IMG/VR virus record: IMGVR_UViG_3300044640_001110
Location: 1 to 37,611 of that record
Source: a virus
Length of the DNA stretch: 37,611 nucleotides
Strand: one strand, 5' to 3'
Within the stretch, counting starts at the first letter, position 1. Every line of letters begins with the position of its first letter. The notes beneath the pieces are model-generated. The model saw only the letters and a list, made by a program, of their open reading frames with translations. It was not told where the DNA came from and ran no database searches. The translations under genes were made by a program, and so were the position numbers. Positions 4,026 to 19,315 of the stretch are shown one piece after another.

Positions 4026-4117
4026 GGCTTGCCCTTTGCCGGTCTGCAGTTAATCGGATACGGACACCTTCCAGCCGCCGCATTCCAGCCGCAGACGCAG
4101 ATTTTCTTTGTGGTCAT
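4022..4117 (-). CDS. Cys-rich 31-residue mini-protein in a duplicated cassette
   Basis: The ORF runs from ATG 4117 (TGATG overlap with the polymerase stop) to TGA at 4022-4024. The product begins MTTKKICVCGW and continues NAAAGRCPYPINC, ending in a basic RPAKGKP. The four cysteines (CxC, then C and C) could bind one zinc ion. Its ribosome site (GGAG) lies inside the last polymerase codons. The start context is the same as that of the downstream nuclease (ACACGTGATGACCAC), because both derive from the same duplicated sequence. The family is unrecognised. A small nucleic-acid-binding or protein-binding knuckle is a guess from composition only. Confidence 0.6.
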   Translation of the reverse strand: MTTKKICVCGWNAAAGRCPYPINCRPAKGKP

Positions 4118-4183
4118 CACGTGTCTCCATAGGTGTAAGCCGTGCCTGCCTCGCAGGCCACGGGCAGGTCGGGCGCCCAAGTC
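4110..4183. repeat. Direct repeat copy 2 (74 bp), original polymerase 3' end
   Basis: This is the partner of 3950-4023. It encodes the natural C-terminus of the DNA polymerase, so it is taken as the original copy. The segment 4024-4109 between the repeats is the part unique to the inserted cassette. Confidence 0.95.
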
Positions 4184-6828
4184 GGGGCGGTGGACATGAT
4201 GGCCACGATGTCCTTCTCCGCCTGCTCGGCCTGATCCTCTGGCACGATGCAGACGTTCTCGTCGTGGACTTGGAAGGCGACGTGATACCCGGCGTCCCTG
4301 ATCGCCAGCATCTGCTCGGCCACGACAATGCGGGCCAGCGCCTGAGTGCAGTTGTGCACTACGAAAGGTCCCGAAGAACCTCGGACCACGAAGCGAGAGT
4401 TGGGTCCGGCGTTGCGGAGGTCATAGACAGGTTCCGCTGCCACCGATAGAACAACGTCGACTTCGGCACGCCCGTCAGTCTGTGTGCTCTGGTAAGGTCC
4501 ACGGGTAGAGCCCCGCGCCTGTTCCCAGCCTGCACGGTGTAGGATGTCCAGCGACAGTTCCCGGGTGTGTAGTCCCCGTTGTTGTCCTTCCGGTCCAGTG
4601 TCAGACCCGACTGGTAGGTGGGGCCCATGTCCCCCCAGAACGCCGCGAAGGAGGCATCCCACTCCGGGCATACTCTGATCCCGCGTGCTCCATAGTTGCG
4701 CCACGCTTGGTGTGAGGGTAGCCGGCACCGGTCCCGCATCGAGCGCCATACCCAGTAGGCCGGGTGATTGGCCATGCCGTGAGTCTTGTTCGCCGCCGCC
4801 ATCATGCAGCCACACGAGGAACTCCCGCCACGCTGTGCCCACTTTTCCACACCACTGGCTACGCGCGTCACCTCCGTCCCGCATATGCACCGGAATACCC
4901 ACAGCGAACGGCGACCGTTCGTGCCCTGATACCGTACTCCCGTCAGGTAACCAAAAGTCTGACCTGTATAGTCCTTCGCACGATGATGCACGGCGCCACC
5001 CTTTCTCGGTTAGGACCTCATGGTCCGGGGTCATGCGGACCCCATCGAGTTTGGTAGTAGACTGTTCGCCTTGACTAATCAACCCGTCATGCTGCACCCA
5101 TTGCACGCCGTCCCAAAGCCGGTCATCAGTCAGCACGTCCACAATCGGGACCCATCCCCGCTGGGTAAGTACTTGCGTGTCGCCAGCCAAACAGTTCTCC
5201 GCCACCATCGCGCCATAGATGCGGCTCTGGCCGGGGATCGTGCCGCTGTCCGCGTCCTTCGGGTCGCCGGCCAGCCGAGCCTTCATGGCTCTGTCAAACA
5301 TGCGCCTGTCTTGGATGTAGGTGAACTGCCGGGTGGCGGCCGTGAGCCCGTGGTACTGCAGCCGCATGCCGTTGGGCAGGAGGATGCCATCGGCGTCATA
5401 GGTCAGGATGTTACCGATCCGCCCCCTGCGCCCAGCCGCCATGCTGGACAGGGCGTAGCCACACTCACCCCACAGCTTCACGATCTGGTGGTAGCCTGTA
5501 CGGTACGTGCGCACCAGACGGTCGACGTCCTCCTCGGGGATGTCCACAGGTGGCTTGCCGCGCTTCAGGGTCAGCTGAAACTTCTCTGCCGACATGCCGT
5601 AGCCCAGCCCAAGGATGGCGGACTTGCCGACGTGGCGCTCCAGCTTGTCGGCCTTGGTCACCTTACGGCCATAGAAGACCGTGGCGAACTCGGAGTACAC
5701 GTCCCGCCCCTCGCGGAACCATTGCACAAGGTCGCTCTGCCCGGCGAGGTAGGCCACCATGCGCGCCTCGATCTGGCTGCTGTCACAGCTGATGATCTTG
5801 TGCCCCTCGGGGGCCCGAAGGGCTTGGCGCAGCGCACCACCACGGGGCAGGTTCTGGAGGTTCATCTTGTCGCCACCAGAGAAGCGGCCAGTGTGCGCGC
5901 CATAGTAGTTGAGCATGATGGGCAGCCGGCCACGGCCAGCCACTCCGATCAGGGAGGAGGTGCGCGTCTCCTCCAGCGTGGACTTGAGCCCAAGCCGTGC
6001 GGCCACCAGTGTCTGGACCACGGGGTTGTGGTGATCCTGCAGCGCGAGGAAGTCGAGGTCTGTCTTGGCGAAGGCGAAGGCTTCCTTGCCAGTGGTGCCG
6101 CTGATCTTGGTTGGTGGCTCTACCCCGCAGCGGCGCAGCAGCTTGGCGAACTTGTCGTTGGACATGAGGATGTCCTTGCCCTTGCCTCCAAGGGTGTCGA
6201 GCAGGGCCTGCTTCTCTGCCTGCACCACTACAAGGTGTGCCTCCAGCTTGTCCACGTCCAGCTCCACCGTCGGCTCGGTGTACATCCGGAGCGTGCTGTC
6301 GATGATCCGGAGCTCAGATACCGGGAACCCTTTGCGCAGCTTCTTGAACAGGGCGTAGGTCAGGTCCACGTCGTTGGCGCAGTACCTCATGTAGGCCGCA
6401 AGTTCTGCAGAGCCGAAGTCCCTGCGCCGTTTGCCGATCGCGAGGATGACCTCCTCGCCCTTCTGGCCCAACTCATAGTGCTGGGCCAATGCCTTGAGGC
6501 TACCACCCACAGTGGACTGGTGCTTGGGTCGTGCCATGGATAGCGTGTCGAGCCAGAGCTTGGGCTTGATACCGAAGTGCCACGACAGGATGGCGCCGTC
6601 GAACAGGGTGTTGTGGCAGAGGATCGCCTTGTCGCTGTAGTCGAGCGACTTGAGGAACTTGCCCGGGTTGTCCCCGGTGTAGGTATCCACTGGCCCGTCG
6701 TTGACCTTGACGCCGACGCCGATGACCTCGAACAGAGGTGATCGTACGTAACTTTCTGTCGTGATCTTAGACAGGGAGTAATCCCTGTCGTAGTATGTCT
6801 CAAAGTCGATAGTAACTATGTCCATCAT
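4117..6828 (-). CDS. Family A DNA polymerase (PolA-type) with 3'-5' exonuclease, interrupted by an intein
   Basis: The precursor has 903 residues. Removing the 281-residue intein (546-826) leaves a 622-residue polymerase, the usual size for phage family A enzymes. The DEDD exonuclease domain is at the N-terminus: DFETYY (Asp8, Glu10), CHNTLFDGAIL (Asp77) and ANDVDLTYALF (Asp153, Asp155). Polymerase motif A is CDSSQIEAR (Asp349), the O-helix is RHVGKSAILGLGYG (about 398-411) and motif C is VHDE (854-857). The intein lies in the conserved VAEN/CTQALAR segment before motif C. The enzyme is presumably the phage replicase with proofreading. The gene overlaps the upstream MazZ-like gene (GAATGATG) and feeds by TGATG coupling into the mini-cassette and nuclease. 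Its catalytic core is incomplete until splicing occurs. Confidence 0.96.
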   Translation of the reverse strand: MMDIVTIDFETYYDRDYSLSKITTESYVRSPLFEVIGVGVKVNDGPVDTYTGDNPGKFLKSLDYSDKAILCHNTLFDGAILSWHFGIKPKLWLDTLSMARPKHQSTVGGSLKALAQHYELGQKGEEVILAIGKRRRDFGSAELAAYMRYCANDVDLTYALFKKLRKGFPVSELRIIDSTLRMYTEPTVELDVDKLEAHLVVVQAEKQALLDTLGGKGKDILMSNDKFAKLLRRCGVEPPTKISGTTGKEAFAFAKTDLDFLALQDHHNPVVQTLVAARLGLKSTLEETRTSSLIGVAGRGRLPIMLNYYGAHTGRFSGGDKMNLQNLPRGGALRQALRAPEGHKIISCDSSQIEARMVAYLAGQSDLVQWFREGRDVYSEFATVFYGRKVTKADKLERHVGKSAILGLGYGMSAEKFQLTLKRGKPPVDIPEEDVDRLVRTYRTGYHQIVKLWGECGYALSSMAAGRRGRIGNILTYDADGILLPNGMRLQYHGLTAATRQFTYIQDRRMFDRAMKARLAGDPKDADSGTIPGQSRIYGAMVAENCLAGDTQVLTQRGWVPIVDVLTDDRLWDGVQWVQHDGLISQGEQSTTKLDGVRMTPDHEVLTEKGWRRASSCEGLYRSDFWLPDGSTVSGHERSPFAVGIPVHMRDGGDARSQWCGKVGTAWREFLVWLHDGGGEQDSRHGQSPGLLGMALDAGPVPATLTPSVAQLWSTRDQSMPGVGCLLRGVLGGHGPHLPVGSDTGPEGQQRGLHTRELSLDILHRAGWEQARGSTRGPYQSTQTDGRAEVDVVLSVAAEPVYDLRNAGPNSRFVVRGSSGPFVVHNCTQALARIVVAEQMLAIRDAGYHVAFQVHDENVCIVPEDQAEQAEKDIVAIMSTAPTWAPDLPVACEAGTAYTYGDT
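4351..5193 (-). mobile_element. Intein in the DNA polymerase, with no in-frame endonuclease
   Basis: This 281-residue insertion begins CLAGDTQVLTQRGWVPI (block A). It has MTPDHEVLTEKGWRRA as block B (54-69), PVYDLRNAGPNSRFVVRG as block F and PFVVHN as block G, with Cys as the +1 residue. Those blocks make a complete class 1 Hint splicing domain with the normal HN ending. The 170 or so residues between block B and block F are Gly/Ser/Arg-rich and show no LAGLIDADG or HNH motif in this frame. The same DNA encodes an HNH endonuclease in the +1 frame (4359-4991). The boundaries are set by restoration of the VAENCTQALAR polymerase segment. Confidence 0.93.
4359..4991 (-). CDS. HNH homing endonuclease nested out of frame inside the polymerase intein
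   Basis: A 210-residue protein in the +1 frame relative to the intein, entirely inside it. It starts at GTG 4991 directly after intein block B and has its own ribosome site (AAAGGGTGG, about 6 nt upstream). The N-terminal zinc-binding module has FRCICGTEV and SSSCGC. Then come YWVWRSMRDRC and YGARGIRVCPEW, and the HNH core LTLDRKDNNGDYTPGNCRW. The C-terminus has a helix-turn-helix (LTGVPKSTLFYRW), similar to the end of the free-standing HNH protein at 12897-13436. The gene stops 8 bp before the intein ends, so its last codons also encode blocks F and G. It probably cuts intein-less polymerase genes and so spreads the intein. Confidence 0.9.
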   Translation of the reverse strand: MHHRAKDYTGQTFGYLTGVRYQGTNGRRSLWVFRCICGTEVTRVASGVEKWAQRGGSSSCGCMMAAANKTHGMANHPAYWVWRSMRDRCRLPSHQAWRNYGARGIRVCPEWDASFAAFWGDMGPTYQSGLTLDRKDNNGDYTPGNCRWTSYTVQAGNRRGALPVDLTRAHRLTGVPKSTLFYRWQRNLSMTSATPDPTLASWSEVLRDLS

Positions 6829-14815: not shown

Positions 14816-15105
14816 AGTGCTCTCCCCTTGCCGTTGCCGTAGCCGTTGCCGTAGCCGTTGCCGTAGCCGTCGCCGTAGCCGTTGCCGTAGCCGTCGCCGT
14901 TGCCGTAGCCGTTGCCGTCGCCGTAGCCGTAGCCGTAGCCGTAGCCGTTGCCGTAGCCGTTGCCGTTGCCGCCGCCGTTGCCGCCGCCGTTGCCGTTGCC
15001 GTAGCCGTAGCCGTTGCCGTTGCCGTAGCCGTAGCCGTTGCCGTTGCCGTTGTGGCCAGTGACGACCCTACTCGGTGTCAGCCTGACCCAGTGAAGTGTT
15101 GTCAT
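14812..15105 (-). CDS. Gly-Asn/Tyr/Asp dipeptide-repeat protein (97 aa)
   Basis: The start at ATG 15105 follows AGGAA; a GTG/ATG 7 codons upstream is possible. The first 18 residues (MTTLHWVRLTPSRVVTGH) are ordinary. Residues 19-92 are then 37 tandem X-Gly dipeptides with X mainly Asn or Tyr, sometimes Asp or Gly. A short basic tail (KGRAL) ends the protein. The codons are almost always GGC with AAC, TAC or GAC, so units differ mainly at one base. The protein is likely disordered or forms a glycine-rich, aromatic-containing assembly. The ATGA overlap with the next gene and its own ribosome site support expression. Function unknown. Confidence 0.75.
   Translation of the reverse strand: MTTLHWVRLTPSRVVTGHNGNGNGYGYGNGNGYGYGNGNGGGNGGGNGNGYGNGYGYGYGYGDGNGYGNGDGYGNGYGDGYGNGYGNGYGNGKGRAL
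14830..15051. repeat. Imperfect hexanucleotide tandem array (CCGTTG/CCGTAG/CCGTCG)
   Basis: About 37 copies of a 6-bp unit, read on the plus strand as ccgttg, ccgtag or ccgtcg with a few ccgccg, lie inside the dipeptide-repeat gene. All units keep the frame. The regular unit suggests growth by replication slippage followed by point changes. Confidence 0.95.
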
Positions 15106-16146: not shown

Positions 16147-16424
16147 AGCGACACCTCGACCGGAGCCATACCGGGGTTGAACTTGATGTGGAGGCAGGTC
16201 AGGCCGTAGTTCTTCTTCAACTCGTGACGGTCACAGACGGTGATCCGGCAGTTGTTAAGGGGGGACGACTGGTCCACAATGGTGAACTCGTGGCCAACGG
16301 TGTAGTCATAGACGGCGTCCTTCTGGCTGATGTAAGGACGGACCGAGGGAACCACAGTCAGGAAAGACTTGGTCTTGGTGTTAAGTTTGGTGGAGAGGTC
16401 GGCCAGTTTGGTCCAGTTGGTCAT
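16143..16424 (-). CDS. Hypothetical protein (93 aa)
   Basis: ATG 16424 has a weak GGA-type site about 10 nt upstream. The product starts MTNWTKLADLSTKLNTKTKS and has a C-terminal beta-rich half with two Cys (ITVCDRHELKKNYGLTCLHI). No family is recognised. It is coupled to the small HTH gene by a GTGA overlap. Confidence 0.65.
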   Translation of the reverse strand: MTNWTKLADLSTKLNTKTKSFLTVVPSVRPYISQKDAVYDYTVGHEFTIVDQSSPLNNCRITVCDRHELKKNYGLTCLHIKFNPGMAPVEVSL

Positions 16425-16586
16425 GGTGATAGTCCATATTTGTGTGTTAAGATTGGGAAGTCGGCTGGACCAGATCGATTTCGGTGATGATCGGCCAGCC
16501 CCAAAAACTTAGCCGATCCGATTTCGGTTGTCAAGTTTTGGGGGGGTAAGGGGGGGTTTTTGGGCGCGCGCGGTGCGCGTTATTAC
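16425..16586. other. Intergenic segment with CGATTTCGGT direct repeats and G-runs
   Basis: CGATTTCGGT occurs at 16476-16485 and 16519-16528. A plus-strand run of seven G, TAA, seven G, five T and three G (16540-16564) has G-quadruplex potential. GCGCGCGCGGTGCGCG follows it. The segment separates the early operon from the gene at 16587. It may hold a promoter or operator for the leftward operon, but I cannot place a convincing -35/-10 pair. Confidence 0.5.
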
Positions 16587-16910
16587 TCACGCTACCCCTC
16601 GTTTCTTGGGTATGGGTGTACCAAGAACTACTACTGTACGGGCGTAGTAATCTCGTAGAGTCGGGTTATCCCTACGGAATCTCGGTAGCATATGTAAAGG
16701 CAGCCACTTTACATTACCCGGACCATACCACTTTGTCTTATCCAAGTGTATCAGTACGCAGCCGGCCGGGGGCAGTCCGATGTCATCTGACATTGTGCGT
16801 ATGTCATCGCGCCACGCCTTGCATATACCGAGAACATCCGGCGATGTAGAGTCGTAGGGAATGCGGGTTATGGCGTTCGCCAAGGTCTGGCGGAGTAGTT
16901 GATGGTCCAT
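16587..16910 (-). CDS. Small protein with degenerate HNH-like segment (107 aa)
   Basis: ATG 16910 has GGAGACC upstream. The middle contains VLIHLDKTKWYGPGNVKWLP. This matches the pattern of the HNH cores elsewhere in the window (LDRIDNAKGYSSDNVRWA; LDRKDNNGDYTPGNCRW) at the LD, K, Y, P/S-x-N and V/C-x-W positions, but lacks the first catalytic pair. It also lacks the N-terminal zinc module and C-terminal helix-turn-helix. It could be a decayed homing endonuclease or a small HNH-fold DNA-binding protein. The reading frame is intact. It is the last gene before the TGTAAA repeat region. Confidence 0.65.
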   Translation of the reverse strand: MDHQLLRQTLANAITRIPYDSTSPDVLGICKAWRDDIRTMSDDIGLPPAGCVLIHLDKTKWYGPGNVKWLPLHMLPRFRRDNPTLRDYYARTVVVLGTPIPKKRGVA

Positions 16911-17283
16911 GTCGTGGTCTCCAGTGGTGTGTAAACCACCTACTATCTACAAATGGGGCCGATTGCAAGACAAAATATCTTAACACGAAACTGAAAAATA
17001 GATAGTCTAAGTGCCTGTAATCATTGGGATTTCCGAAGCACTATCTGTAAAATCTACGATTTTTTAGGAGAGACCCCCCCTAAATTGTGAGGCCGGCGTT
17101 GGAGTGTAAAGGTGTAAAGTAAGCAATGCTGACCTAATTGCAATTTCCGTCACGTATCATCAAAAAAAACATGTATTTTATATATTATTGAGATACTTTA
17201 CTACTACTACCCTTTGGTTTACACCCCGCAACTCATTGGTTTCATTGGACATTCCACTTTTCTGTAAAGATACCAACCATCTT

Positions 17284-17308
17284 ATCTTTACACCTTTGGT
17301 GTAAAGAT
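17284..17308. promoter_or_regulatory. Perfect palindromic GGTGTAAAGAT site
   Basis: The arm ATCTTTACACC (17284-17294) is followed by TTT and then its exact reverse complement GGTGTAAAGAT (17298-17308), with a further GGTGTAAAG directly after it. This is a 11-bp perfect inverted repeat, suitable for a dimeric protein. Confidence 0.75.
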
Positions 17309-17355
17309 GGTGTAAAGCGAAAACAGATAGTTGTTTAATATCAAGCACTTACAGG

Positions 17356-17370
17356 GTGTAAAGTTTACAC
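17356..17370. promoter_or_regulatory. Palindrome GTGTAAA-G-TTTACAC
   Basis: A perfect 7-bp inverted repeat with a single-base centre, followed by a direct copy AGGTGTAAAG at 17375-17384. It belongs to the same motif family as 17284-17308. Confidence 0.75.
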
Positions 17371-17524
17371 TACTAGGTGTAAAGGTGCGCAGCCCCCCGA
17401 CTGTAGTGTGTAAAGATACTGCGCGTTTACATGTACAAGCTACAGGCCCCCGACGTATGGCGAGTGAAACGAGCAAACAAAACGGCACGCAAGCGCTACG
17501 TGTAAAGGTGTAAAGCAGACAACA

Positions 17525-17556
17525 AAAAGCCCGCCCGGGGTTAGCCGGGCGGGTTA
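17525..17556 (-). terminator. Rho-independent terminator after the 66-aa membrane protein gene
   Basis: A 9-bp G+C stem (CCCGCCCGG at 17530-17538 with CCGGGCGGG at 17545-17553) is followed on the minus strand by GC then TTTTT. It ends leftward transcription from 17760 before the repeat region, so the early operon downstream must have its own promoter. Confidence 0.85.
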
Positions 17557-17559
17557 GGT

Positions 17560-17760
17560 TTACAGTGCGAGTAGGATCGTGGCGAGTAAGATCATCAGCG
17601 TGGCGAACATGGCGCCCGCGATCCACTCGCGGATGTTGCCCGAGTTGGGCGACTCGTGCGTGTCAAGGTACCGCTGCGCGGCCCTCTGCCCGATCTTGGA
17701 TACGTGCGCGTCAATCTTGGTCTGGCGATCGCGCCGCGCGGCGGCAGATTCTTTGGTCAT
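17560..17760 (-). CDS. Small protein with C-terminal membrane segment (66 aa)
   Basis: ATG 17760 has AGGAA upstream, with GTAAAG directly before the start. A basic, charged N-terminus (AAARRDRQTKIDAHVSK) is followed by a C-terminal hydrophobic stretch IAGAMFATLMILLATILLAL. It is probably a tail-anchored membrane protein facing the cytoplasm. Its function is unknown. Its transcript ends at the hairpin terminator immediately downstream. Confidence 0.75.
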   Translation of the reverse strand: MTKESAAARRDRQTKIDAHVSKIGQRAAQRYLDTHESPNSGNIREWIAGAMFATLMILLATILLAL

Positions 17761-17785
17761 CTTTACATTCCTATGTGAGAGGTGG

Positions 17786-17813
17786 GGCGGGCCTTGCAGC
17801 CCGCCTCGTTTTT
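17786..17813 (+). terminator. Hairpin with plus-strand T-run between the 133-aa and 66-aa genes
   Basis: GGCGGGC (17786-17792) pairs with GCCCGCC (17799-17805) around CTTGCA, followed by TCGTTTTT on the plus strand. This orientation would stop rightward transcription coming out of the repeat region. On the minus strand there is no T-run after the stem, so leftward transcription may pass. Confidence 0.55.
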
Positions 17814-18213
17814 ACTTCTGGCCAGCCATGAACTGCTGGAAGGCGGCGAACATCGCGGCCATATCCGGAGCCGGCGCCGCAGGGGCTCCGGGTGCCGGAG
17901 CGACCGGAGCCGCTTTGCCCTTGCCCTTGGTGGGCTTGGTGCCGTTGGCCGGGATAGCGGCGACTTGCGCCGCGGTCAGGGCCTTGGGCGTCGGCTTGTC
18001 GGCCTTCACTGCTTTGGCCGGGCGGCCGTCCGCTTTGAAGTTAAGGACCATGCCGCCCCGGTAGTCAGCGAACCCGTAGAAGCGTGCATCTGTTTCGCCA
18101 TTGGCGGACAGAACCTCTACCGCGGTCACGCCGCCCAGCAGACCGTTTTCCGTGGCCTTGGTGACGGTCAGCTTGATTGTCAGCGTGACGGGTTCGATTG
18201 CAAACATTGCCAT
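17812..18213 (-). CDS. Hypothetical protein with Pro/Ala-rich C-terminus (133 aa)
   Basis: The chosen start is ATG 18213, with AAAGGAAAC upstream; a longer frame lacks support. Residues 1-70 form a beta-rich domain (EPVTLTIKLTVTKAT; VTAVEVLSANGETDARFYGF). A basic linker with repeated KAVKADKPTPKAL and GTKPTKGKGKAA segments follows, then a Pro/Ala run and a helical end (MAAMFAAFQQFMAGQK). The layout (folded N-domain, flexible tail and terminal peptide) resembles small nucleic-acid-binding phage proteins, but no family is recognised. It is the first gene of the leftward arm, next to the divergent control region. Confidence 0.75.
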   Translation of the reverse strand: MAMFAIEPVTLTIKLTVTKATENGLLGGVTAVEVLSANGETDARFYGFADYRGGMVLNFKADGRPAKAVKADKPTPKALTAAQVAAIPANGTKPTKGKGKAAPVAPAPGAPAAPAPDMAAMFAAFQQFMAGQK

Positions 18214-18693
18214 GATACGTGGTTTCCTTTGTGGGATAAATGCTAGGCCCAGACCATCTAGGCCCAGCACAATTCCCACGCCATAAACCCATGGCGACTA
18301 GCGATGTCAAAGAGCGTCGGGGTCTCACCCTGTCGATCCAGCGGTCGTTTGCTGTTTCGATGACCCTTTATGGCATGGGGCGATGCGCTTGTCAAATTCG
18401 CCGCCACATAGGGCAGAATCGCTTTATATCATAGGATAAGACGCACGCGCGCATTATGCGCGCAGGCATAGGGGGGTGGGGGGTTGGACAGAGTATTCGC
18501 ATGCCCCCCGTATAATGGTAAACCCCACATCCCAAGACCCAAAAATAGCAATCTTTACATTTGTACACTATCCGTACACTACACGTCCACTTTATAGCAC
18601 CCCCGCCATCAACCGATCCAAAAATTTTCCCGGCCCAAAAACCAAATCTTTACACTCTTGACCGACCCCACCCCCAAGAGGTACCATCGCTTC
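18214..18693. promoter_or_regulatory. Divergent control region between leftward early and rightward late arms
   Basis: No gene is seen. CTAGGCCCAG occurs twice as a direct repeat (18243-18252, 18258-18267; 15-bp period), next to the leftward gene. GCGCGCA-TTA-TGCGCGC (18447-18463) is a perfect palindrome. A G-rich run (GGGGGGTGGGGGG, near 18471-18483) follows. TATAAT at 18511-18516 could be a rightward -10, but the nearest -35-like TTGGAC is 21 nt upstream, longer than ideal. AATCTTTACA occurs twice (near 18550 and 18645), echoing the repeat motif of 16.9-17.6 kb. Early and late promoters are expected here; exact sites are uncertain. Confidence 0.6.
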
Positions 18694-19170
18694 ATGTTCA
18701 TGAGCCCTGTCCAGACCAAGTGGTCCGATCGCTTCGCCTTCGATCTCGCCCTCCTCATGGAAGGCAGCGGGGAAAAGCTCGACGAGCTTCTGGATCGGCA
18801 TGAGTACGACGCCAGTGATCTCCTCACATTCAAGAACGACGCCAACTTCCTCAAGAAGGTCGAGGCCTTCAGGGAAGAAGTGCGCACCAAGGGCCTCACT
18901 TTTCGGGTCAAGGCACGCGCACAGGCCGAAGAACTGCTCCGGACCTCATGGATTCTCATCCATGACCCCATTGTGAGCCCCGCGGTGAAGGCCGACCTGA
19001 TCAAGGCGACGGTGCGCTGGGGAGGGCTAGAGACCCCACCGAAGGAAGAAGGCGGTAGCGGGGCAGGAGGAGTCACCATCACCATCAATTTGGGTGGTCA
19101 GACCCTCGATGTGACCGCAAAACACACCCCGCCAGCCATTGAGGACGCCGATGTCGTCGAAGACTATTGA
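18694..19170 (+). CDS. Putative terminase small subunit
   Basis: The protein has 158 residues from ATG 18694, with GAGG 12 nt upstream. ATG 18700 and TTG 18658 are alternative starts. The sequence is helical at the N-terminus (WSDRFAFDLALLMEGSGEKL), has a DLLTFKNDANFLKKVEAFRE middle, and a TSWILIHDPIVSPAVKADLI segment before a Gly-rich linker. The C-terminus forms a beta/acidic end. This is the usual layout of phage small terminases: a DNA-binding helical N-domain, an oligomerising core and a tail that contacts the large subunit. It sits directly before the large subunit gene. No strict family motif exists, so the call rests on position and architecture. Confidence 0.65.
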   Translation: MFMSPVQTKWSDRFAFDLALLMEGSGEKLDELLDRHEYDASDLLTFKNDANFLKKVEAFREEVRTKGLTFRVKARAQAEELLRTSWILIHDPIVSPAVKADLIKATVRWGGLETPPKEEGGSGAGGVTITINLGGQTLDVTAKHTPPAIEDADVVEDY

Positions 19171-19315
19171 AATTCGCAAGGTGAACACCCTTTTTGCCCT
19201 GCAGGCACTCATTGCCACCCTCGCAGGGGGTAATCAGTCCTACCGCACCGCGCGCGTCGCCAATCCCAAGCCCGGTGGGCACATTTACACGGTGTTTATC
19301 TACAATGCCGCTTGA
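19151..19315 (+). CDS. Small hypothetical protein between terminase genes (54 aa)
   Basis: The ORF runs from ATG 19151 to TGA at 19313-19315, overlapping the upstream gene by 20 bp and the large terminase start by 11 bp. The product begins MSSKTIEIRKVNTLFALQAL and ends VFIYNAA. The helical first half and short beta end match no family I know. GGACGCCG precedes the start but is a weak ribosome site. The double overlap supports it; its small size leaves doubt. Confidence 0.5.
   Translation: MSSKTIEIRKVNTLFALQALIATLAGGNQSYRTARVANPKPGGHIYTVFIYNAA

Follow-up and report, generated by a model that had tools for sequence, protein, structure and literature searches.

The region at about 16.9–17.5 kb of the window (the complete stretch analysed, a virus record of 37.6 kb that has no end repeats) is probably an iteron-type phage replication origin, judging from its architecture. 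It had originally been read as either a phage origin or a master operator; the origin is the better supported of the two, by the repeated words, the AT-rich tract, the IHF consensus and an initiator-type helicase encoded in relatives and in Pseudomonas phage Rollin, and a role as operator may be additional. Replication origins have been established for few lytic tailed phages, and none of this kind was found for these phages in the open-access literature searched. From the comparative footprint comes a candidate origin whose parts and initiator can be named, along with a testable isolate (Rollin). The features of the region and its surroundings are collected in Table 1.

Table 1. Features of the candidate origin and neighbouring signals, in window coordinates.
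Feature	Position	Strand	Basis or remark
Candidate leftward early promoter	16506–16534	-	TTGACA 16529–16534, 17-bp spacer, TAAGTT 16506–16511; by eye in footprint
Motif A array, 17 TGTAAA words, mostly GTGTAAAG	16930–17564	both	word count; kept in relatives with drifting letters
Motif B ACTATCTA	16942–16949	+	conserved in footprint alignment
Motif B (TAGATAGT on + strand)	16999–17006	-	footprint alignment
Motif B ACTATCT	17040–17046	+	footprint alignment
AT-rich tract, candidate unwinding element	17162–17190	.	sequence and footprint alignment
Motif B (AGATAGT on + strand)	17325–17331	-	footprint alignment
IHF consensus TATCAAGCACTTA, the window's only WATCAANNNNTTR	17339–17351	+	kept here by most relatives
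CCCCCCGACTGTAG, degenerate first copy of C-rich element	17393–17406	+	conserved in close relatives only
Ultra-conserved 14-nt element CCCCCGACGTATGG, right edge of region	17447–17460	+	
Small hairpin GCGAGTGAAACGAGC	17460–17474	+	outer GC pairs, tandem G.A, inner GT/AC, GAA loop
Intrinsic terminator of the 66-aa gene's operon, right-hand boundary of region	17530–17553	-	
Terminase promoter	18648–18687	+	A site CTTTACAC abuts -35 TTGACC (18658), spacer 18, -10 TACCAT (ends 18687)

The array region lies at the divergence point between an early, leftward arm and a virion, rightward arm. The leftward genes, to the left of the array, encode a SNF2-type helicase, a family A DNA polymerase, nucleases, an AAA ATPase and others; the rightward genes begin with TerS and TerL (18.7–20.7 kb) and continue with portal, capsid and tail. 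The window is probably a fragment of the genome of an uncultured phage; its sequence stops in a gene that near-complete relatives have a few genes from the replication operon. No isolate was matched by megablast of the first 25 kb, and among the TerL matches listed the nearest isolate is Pseudomonas phage Rollin (44 %), followed by Rhizobium phage RHph_TM3_14A (38 %). A host search among genome contigs returned two metagenome bins only, and the host is doubtful. GC skew, which is confounded here with gene strand, does not switch cleanly at the array.

An exact count over both strands confirms the 17 TGTAAA words originally reported (12 forward, 5 reverse). Their irregular spacing and mixed orientation were likewise seen; direct pairs are separated by 8 or 11 bp, including those at 17105/17113 and 17501/17509 (GTGTAAAGGTGTAAAG), and there are also inverted pairs. 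The chance expectation of about 0.3 copies was too low, because the region is AT-richer than the window (42 % GC in the region): 1000 shuffles of the 635 bp give a mean of 1.0 TGTAAA and a maximum of 4. Even so, the excess is beyond doubt. Every 635-bp interval that starts outside 16.3–18.2 kb holds at most three copies, and the whole window has 33 against 5.6 expected from shuffles. Equal motif density elsewhere and lack of conservation in related phages had been named as grounds for rejecting the prediction; density elsewhere is not equal, and the array is kept in relatives. The description of the region as gene-free is nearly correct, as only 20 bp separate the first site from a 107-aa ORF, and at the other end the last site reaches the stop codon of the 66-aa gene.

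Relatives were collected as viral stretches matching a TerL pattern, of which the best 80 of at least 599 were kept. Among these, at loci with enough upstream DNA, the array is found approximately 2.2–2.6 kb upstream of TerL, and farther away in a few. The closest relatives share the word TGTAAA, mostly at 9–18 copies per 650 bp; three contigs (L004, L039 and L049) are cut inside the array, and fewer words were therefore counted in them. In more distant relatives the word drifts from CTTTACA to CTTAACA, CTATACA and CTTGACA. There is also a second family of words, represented by ACTATCTA, ACAATCTA and AATCTA. A constant position of the array among relatives, despite its changing letters, supports the origin assignment. 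The divergence regions of HMO-2011 and RHph_TM3_14A, when inspected, had no comparable array or element. A DnaA-type origin was also considered and rejected: a perfect DnaA box, TTATCCACA, occurs in one group only and is absent from the window. The loci concerned (L072, L074, L076 and L078, the group with the AACTATACA word) carry the box inside the region, about 2.1 kb upstream of TerL.

A footprint alignment of close relatives (14 of the 15 loci chosen; L040, which has no match to the element pattern, was left out) resolves the region into conserved blocks, namely B words, A words, the AT-rich tract, the IHF consensus and two C-rich blocks. The B words belong to the TAGATAGT family (motif B), and the window's four ACTATCT copies all fall in the array region. 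Strict confinement of B words to the array was rejected, since in-region copies of [CG]TATCTA amount to 2/4 in the window, 5/10 in G005, 3/5 in G002 and 0/5 in G018. Similarly, 10 of the 16 genome copies of TGTAAAG in G005 and 9 of 11 in G002 lie inside the region. The words are concentrated in the region of the near-complete relatives, yet are also found outside it.

Positional conservation extends to the AT-rich tract and the IHF site. For the following counts, 69 distinct regions were picked for carrying the hairpin element, and regions that share a clade do not count as independent. Relative to the element, the median position of the most AT-rich 40 bp is -268, and in 63/69 of these regions it falls between -340 and -180. 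Counting places A and B words to either side of this minimum; two sets of short repeats flank an AT-rich region. The IHF consensus is present in 63/69 regions versus 22/567 random and 131/1857 (7 %) AT-matched low-GC windows. Genome-wide, WATCAANNNNTTR occurs four times in G005, three times in G002 and twice in G018, with three, three and one of these copies within the 730-bp region (7/9). Some relatives carry a mirrored IHF copy on the left side, of which the window has a degenerate version (~17006–17025). Host IHF would presumably bind the region at these consensus sites.

The most constant part of the region is the 14-nt element CCCCCGACGTATGG, a non-coding sequence that stays almost letter-perfect while the putative binding words around it change. 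In 56 TerL-selected loci, including the window and all with at least 1,900 bp upstream of TerL, there are no mismatches in 42, one in 12, two in one and three in one; 54/56 thus have at most one. The best matches in control stretches downstream of TerL (37 loci) have 3–5 mismatches. A pattern scan recovered the element in at least 119 stretches. At most loci it is 1.5–2.1 kb upstream of TerL, and its orientation is constant across the loci inspected. In the window, G005, G018 and G002 the exact sequence occurs once, on one strand only. Other phage isolates gave one weak partial match (E=2, an Arthrobacter phage), which was taken as chance.

Directly 3′ of the element a hairpin can form. Of 82 distinct contexts, picked like the regions above for carrying the element and including non-independent rows from the same clade, 57 have at least four Watson–Crick pairs when up to two G.A are allowed, against 7.7 in shuffles. 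Tandem G.A hairpins are found in 38/82 contexts versus 0.6 in shuffles, and their loops are GNA triplets in 29/38. The stems vary on both sides (inner pairs GC/GC in 12, GT/AC in 9, AC/GT in 8), and in a minority of contexts the hairpin is not clear. GNA triloops on tandem G.A stems may point to a structure formed in DNA rather than RNA. An Rfam scan of window positions 16400–19300 returned nothing except a chance-level wcaG match.

The relatives also point to an initiator. In near-complete genomes a gene for a 94-aa Xre-like HTH protein is usually followed immediately by one for a 949–957-aa protein, an archaeo-eukaryotic (AEP-type) primase fused to a SaPI-Rep-like initiator helicase; in the window both genes fall outside the truncated sequence. 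Pfam recognizes DUF927 in the fused protein and, in G005, also a LigD-type primase-polymerase domain. In an AlphaFold2 model of the G005 protein (27 sequences, mean pLDDT 80, pTM 0.45), residues 353–943 match SCCmec Cch (5dgk; Z 27.6, 484/511 residues) and the SaPIbov1 initiator Rep (8tch; Z 25.8, 461/487 residues), with a large rmsd of 12–13 to both, presumably because the domains are placed differently. Residues 1–202 match AEP-type primases, with the cyanophage S-2L PrimPol at Z 16.6 and RSF1010 RepB′ in complex with its initiator DNA ssiA (3h25) at Z 11.6. The fused protein is present in 27/27 records searched, comprising 26 of the 27 HTH-positive records and Rollin. The 94-aa gene is found in 27/40 records, and in 22/24 of those longer than 41 kb. 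In L314 and L320 an HTH gene likewise precedes the helicase, although the primase-helicases there are only about 30 % identical.

Two small DNA-binding proteins had been put forward as ligands of the array, and neither holds up well. The 69-aa HTH_23 protein is present in 5/40 relative records and was not found in G002 or G004 despite their TGTAAA arrays, and the 126-aa winged-helix protein was found in 0/27 records in a search that had no positive control. The 94-aa Xre-like protein and the primase-helicase appear to be better candidates. Either of them may bind the words, and the two word families may serve two ligands. In SaPI Rep, iterons are recognized by the C-terminal domain, according to an excerpt of PMC7581432. 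Among the fused-protein columns that track the type of motif B, only 2 of the top 30 lie in the C-terminal domain; the co-varying columns are not concentrated there and therefore do not support this domain as the reader of B.

The fused protein is also encoded by Pseudomonas phage Rollin (E 3.9e-191), where a 104-aa gene comes before it, and the genes of Rollin are laid out in two arms, bidirectionally, as in the window's group. Nine of its ten copies of AAAAGGTAG are within the first 900 bp, at the junction of the record between the arms, mostly in 25-bp dyads of the form AAAAGGTAG-N7-CTACCTTTT. The same 900 bp contain TATGCAA words, three of them in tandem beside an AT-rich tract, and one of Rollin's two matches to the IHF consensus, at 324. 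Rollin positions 1–900 thus resemble the window region in associated protein, layout, two word families, IHF consensus and AT tract, but differ in the words themselves, and neither the words of the window's group nor CCCCCGACGTATGG were found in Rollin. The architecture therefore recurs with other letters.

Several known systems share part of this makeup. PICI origins always have two sets of iterons flanking an AT-rich region, according to the legend of Fig. 2 in PMC6092414. The present region resembles SaPI/PICI origins (e.g. the SaPIbov1 Rep-ori) in that short words lie on both sides of an AT-rich tract and that the relatives of the truncated window encode a helicase with the initiator fold, of the SaPI Rep (DUF927) kind. 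It differs in the fusion of primase to helicase, the two word families, the IHF sites and the invariant hairpin element, and in belonging to a tailed phage rather than a satellite. SaPI origins are directly 3′ of rep, whereas here the array is far from the gene: in G005 the fused-protein gene is at 53614–56475 and the element at 19098 of 57321, some 20 kb apart. The oriV of RSF1010 (IncQ), likened here by description and not by sequence, also combines iterons, a helicase and an AEP-type primase with a conserved sequence and hairpin as a possible primer start. As outlined in excerpts of PMC4234260 and PMC4434180, however, three separate proteins act there, with RepC reading the iterons, RepA unwinding and RepB′ priming at the ssi hairpins. 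RSF1010 has one ssi per strand, whereas here there is one element on one strand. Since neither the position next to rep nor one ssi per strand was found, the region is not filed as a member of the SaPI or the RSF1010 class. In the archaeal plasmid pRN1 (orf56/orf904) the operon encodes a small repressor together with a primase-helicase, and replication needs a stem-loop, according to an excerpt of PMC4234260; the order of a small DNA-binding protein and then a primase-helicase is the same, but pRN1 lacks iterons and its stem-loop of about 100 nt is next to the gene. HMO-2011 encodes a Toprim primase together with a DnaB-like helicase, unlike the AEP primase fused to a DUF927 helicase of the relatives here; its TerL is not among the TerL matches listed, and the window portal is only 27 % identical to that of HMO-2011-type phages. 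The best reading, by analogy, is that the phage region would work like SaPI/PICI origins, which would extend the SaPI-type initiator to virion-forming phages.

In such an origin, phage proteins would bind the short repeated words flanking the AT-rich tract, host IHF would bend the DNA at its conserved sites, the AT-rich tract would open, and the phage initiator, the primase fused to a SaPI-Rep-like helicase, would load. CCCCCGACGTATGG and its hairpin would become single-stranded and act as a primer start site. The hairpin element is perhaps where the primase starts, and if so, it would provide a way to locate origins in metagenomic phages from sequence alone. A more ambitious version, to which we give roughly a one-in-four standing and thus regard as tentative, is that one polypeptide reads the iterons, unwinds the AT tract and primes with its own AEP primase, on one strand, at the 14-nt element and the GNA-loop, tandem-G.A DNA hairpin, such that the words drift freely and the priming element cannot; this would constitute a widespread, undescribed class of phage origin. 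Counting against an origin are the distance of the array from the initiator gene in G005, the GC skew, the co-variation result for the C-terminal domain, the absence of both candidate ligand genes from the truncated window, and the A sites outside the array, some of which are fixed at the terminase promoter.

These outlying A sites bear on a different explanation, that the array is a transcription control centre, with operators of a phage regulator such as the 94-aa Xre-like protein for the leftward early promoter and, through a single site, for the terminase promoter. The region does lie upstream of the candidate leftward promoter, and weak matches (best E 0.14) give the model of the 94-aa protein (pLDDT 90) a Cro/CI-like fold. 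A-like sites outside the array are clustered near gene starts, those before TerS being in one orientation. Of 57 terminase-selected loci, 18 have no match to the promoter pattern and 14, all from the window's clade, have an A site abutting a weak -35 (TTGACC or TTGACG); the other pattern-matched loci have no A site at the -35 and mostly have better -35/-10 boxes. As the 14 loci form one clade, they represent few independent events. Distant relatives have ordinary promoters before TerS (TTGACA-N16-19-TAnnnT, about six bases upstream of the ATG), and the weaker promoter of the window's clade reads TTGACC-N18-TACCAT. Of the single copies originally noted, some are unremarkable: near TerS in the distant relatives, CTTGACA is a plain -35 box. 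The clade's sites tentatively suggest an additional action of the A ligand on the late promoter. Within the array, a series of sigma-70 promoters was rejected: the A sites are not followed by a -10 box at 15–18 bp (mean score 2.81 versus 2.80 in the mirrored control, 528 sites). Moreover, a promoter would not need as much as 17 sites, an AT tract, IHF consensus sites and a hairpin element that is invariant. We therefore consider a control centre unlikely as the main function, at about one chance in five, and an origin may have, besides, a part in regulating the terminase promoter.

The 1.5–2.1 kb separating the highly conserved element from TerL in most loci would also suit a packaging site (pac or cos) for the terminase encoded alongside, formed by the region or by the invariant element and hairpin. 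Among 77 whole contigs with the element, 18 end within 700 bp upstream of it against 7.6 expected. These ends are scattered (6, 16, 58, 77, 80, 98, 258 bp and so on from the element) rather than at one nucleotide, and thus probably fit assembly breaks in a repeat-rich region; additionally, Rollin has a terminase of the family yet lacks the element. A packaging site is accordingly very improbable. Repeated short sites with IHF also occur at plasmid partition sites and temperate-phage integration sites, but no partition or integrase gene was recognized among the window proteins scanned, an argument that is weak because the remainder of the phage's genome is missing, and we give this explanation the least credence of all.

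Several further observations concern sequences around the candidate origin and elsewhere in these genomes. Beside the candidate leftward promoter, at 16540–16556, there is a G-rich block, GGGGGGGTAAGGGGGGG, which is G-rich in close relatives too. At the terminase promoter (18658–18696) transcription likely starts at or beside the TerS ATG, with a similar layout in relatives; thus, the late mRNA may be leaderless. Two replication proteins of the window are longer than their G005 orthologues, the SNF2 helicase (433–2979, -) at 848 versus 515 aa and the DNA polymerase (4117–6828, -) at 903 versus 621 aa. The excess is ~280–330 aa, and weak LAGLIDADG and endonuclease-type matches suggest inteins or similar insertions. 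At 14828–15052 the 6-bp unit TTGCCG is repeated 37 times within a 104-aa ORF, giving a low-complexity protein rich in glycine, asparagine and tyrosine. At the end of the virion arm, relatives encode a giant protein of 2463–2529 aa (46226–53617 in G005, L218), for which the only matches are of unknown function. Lastly, type II hammerhead ribozymes above the Rfam threshold are present in two relatives, at 5583–5647 (-) in L076 and 6085–6152 (-) in L044.
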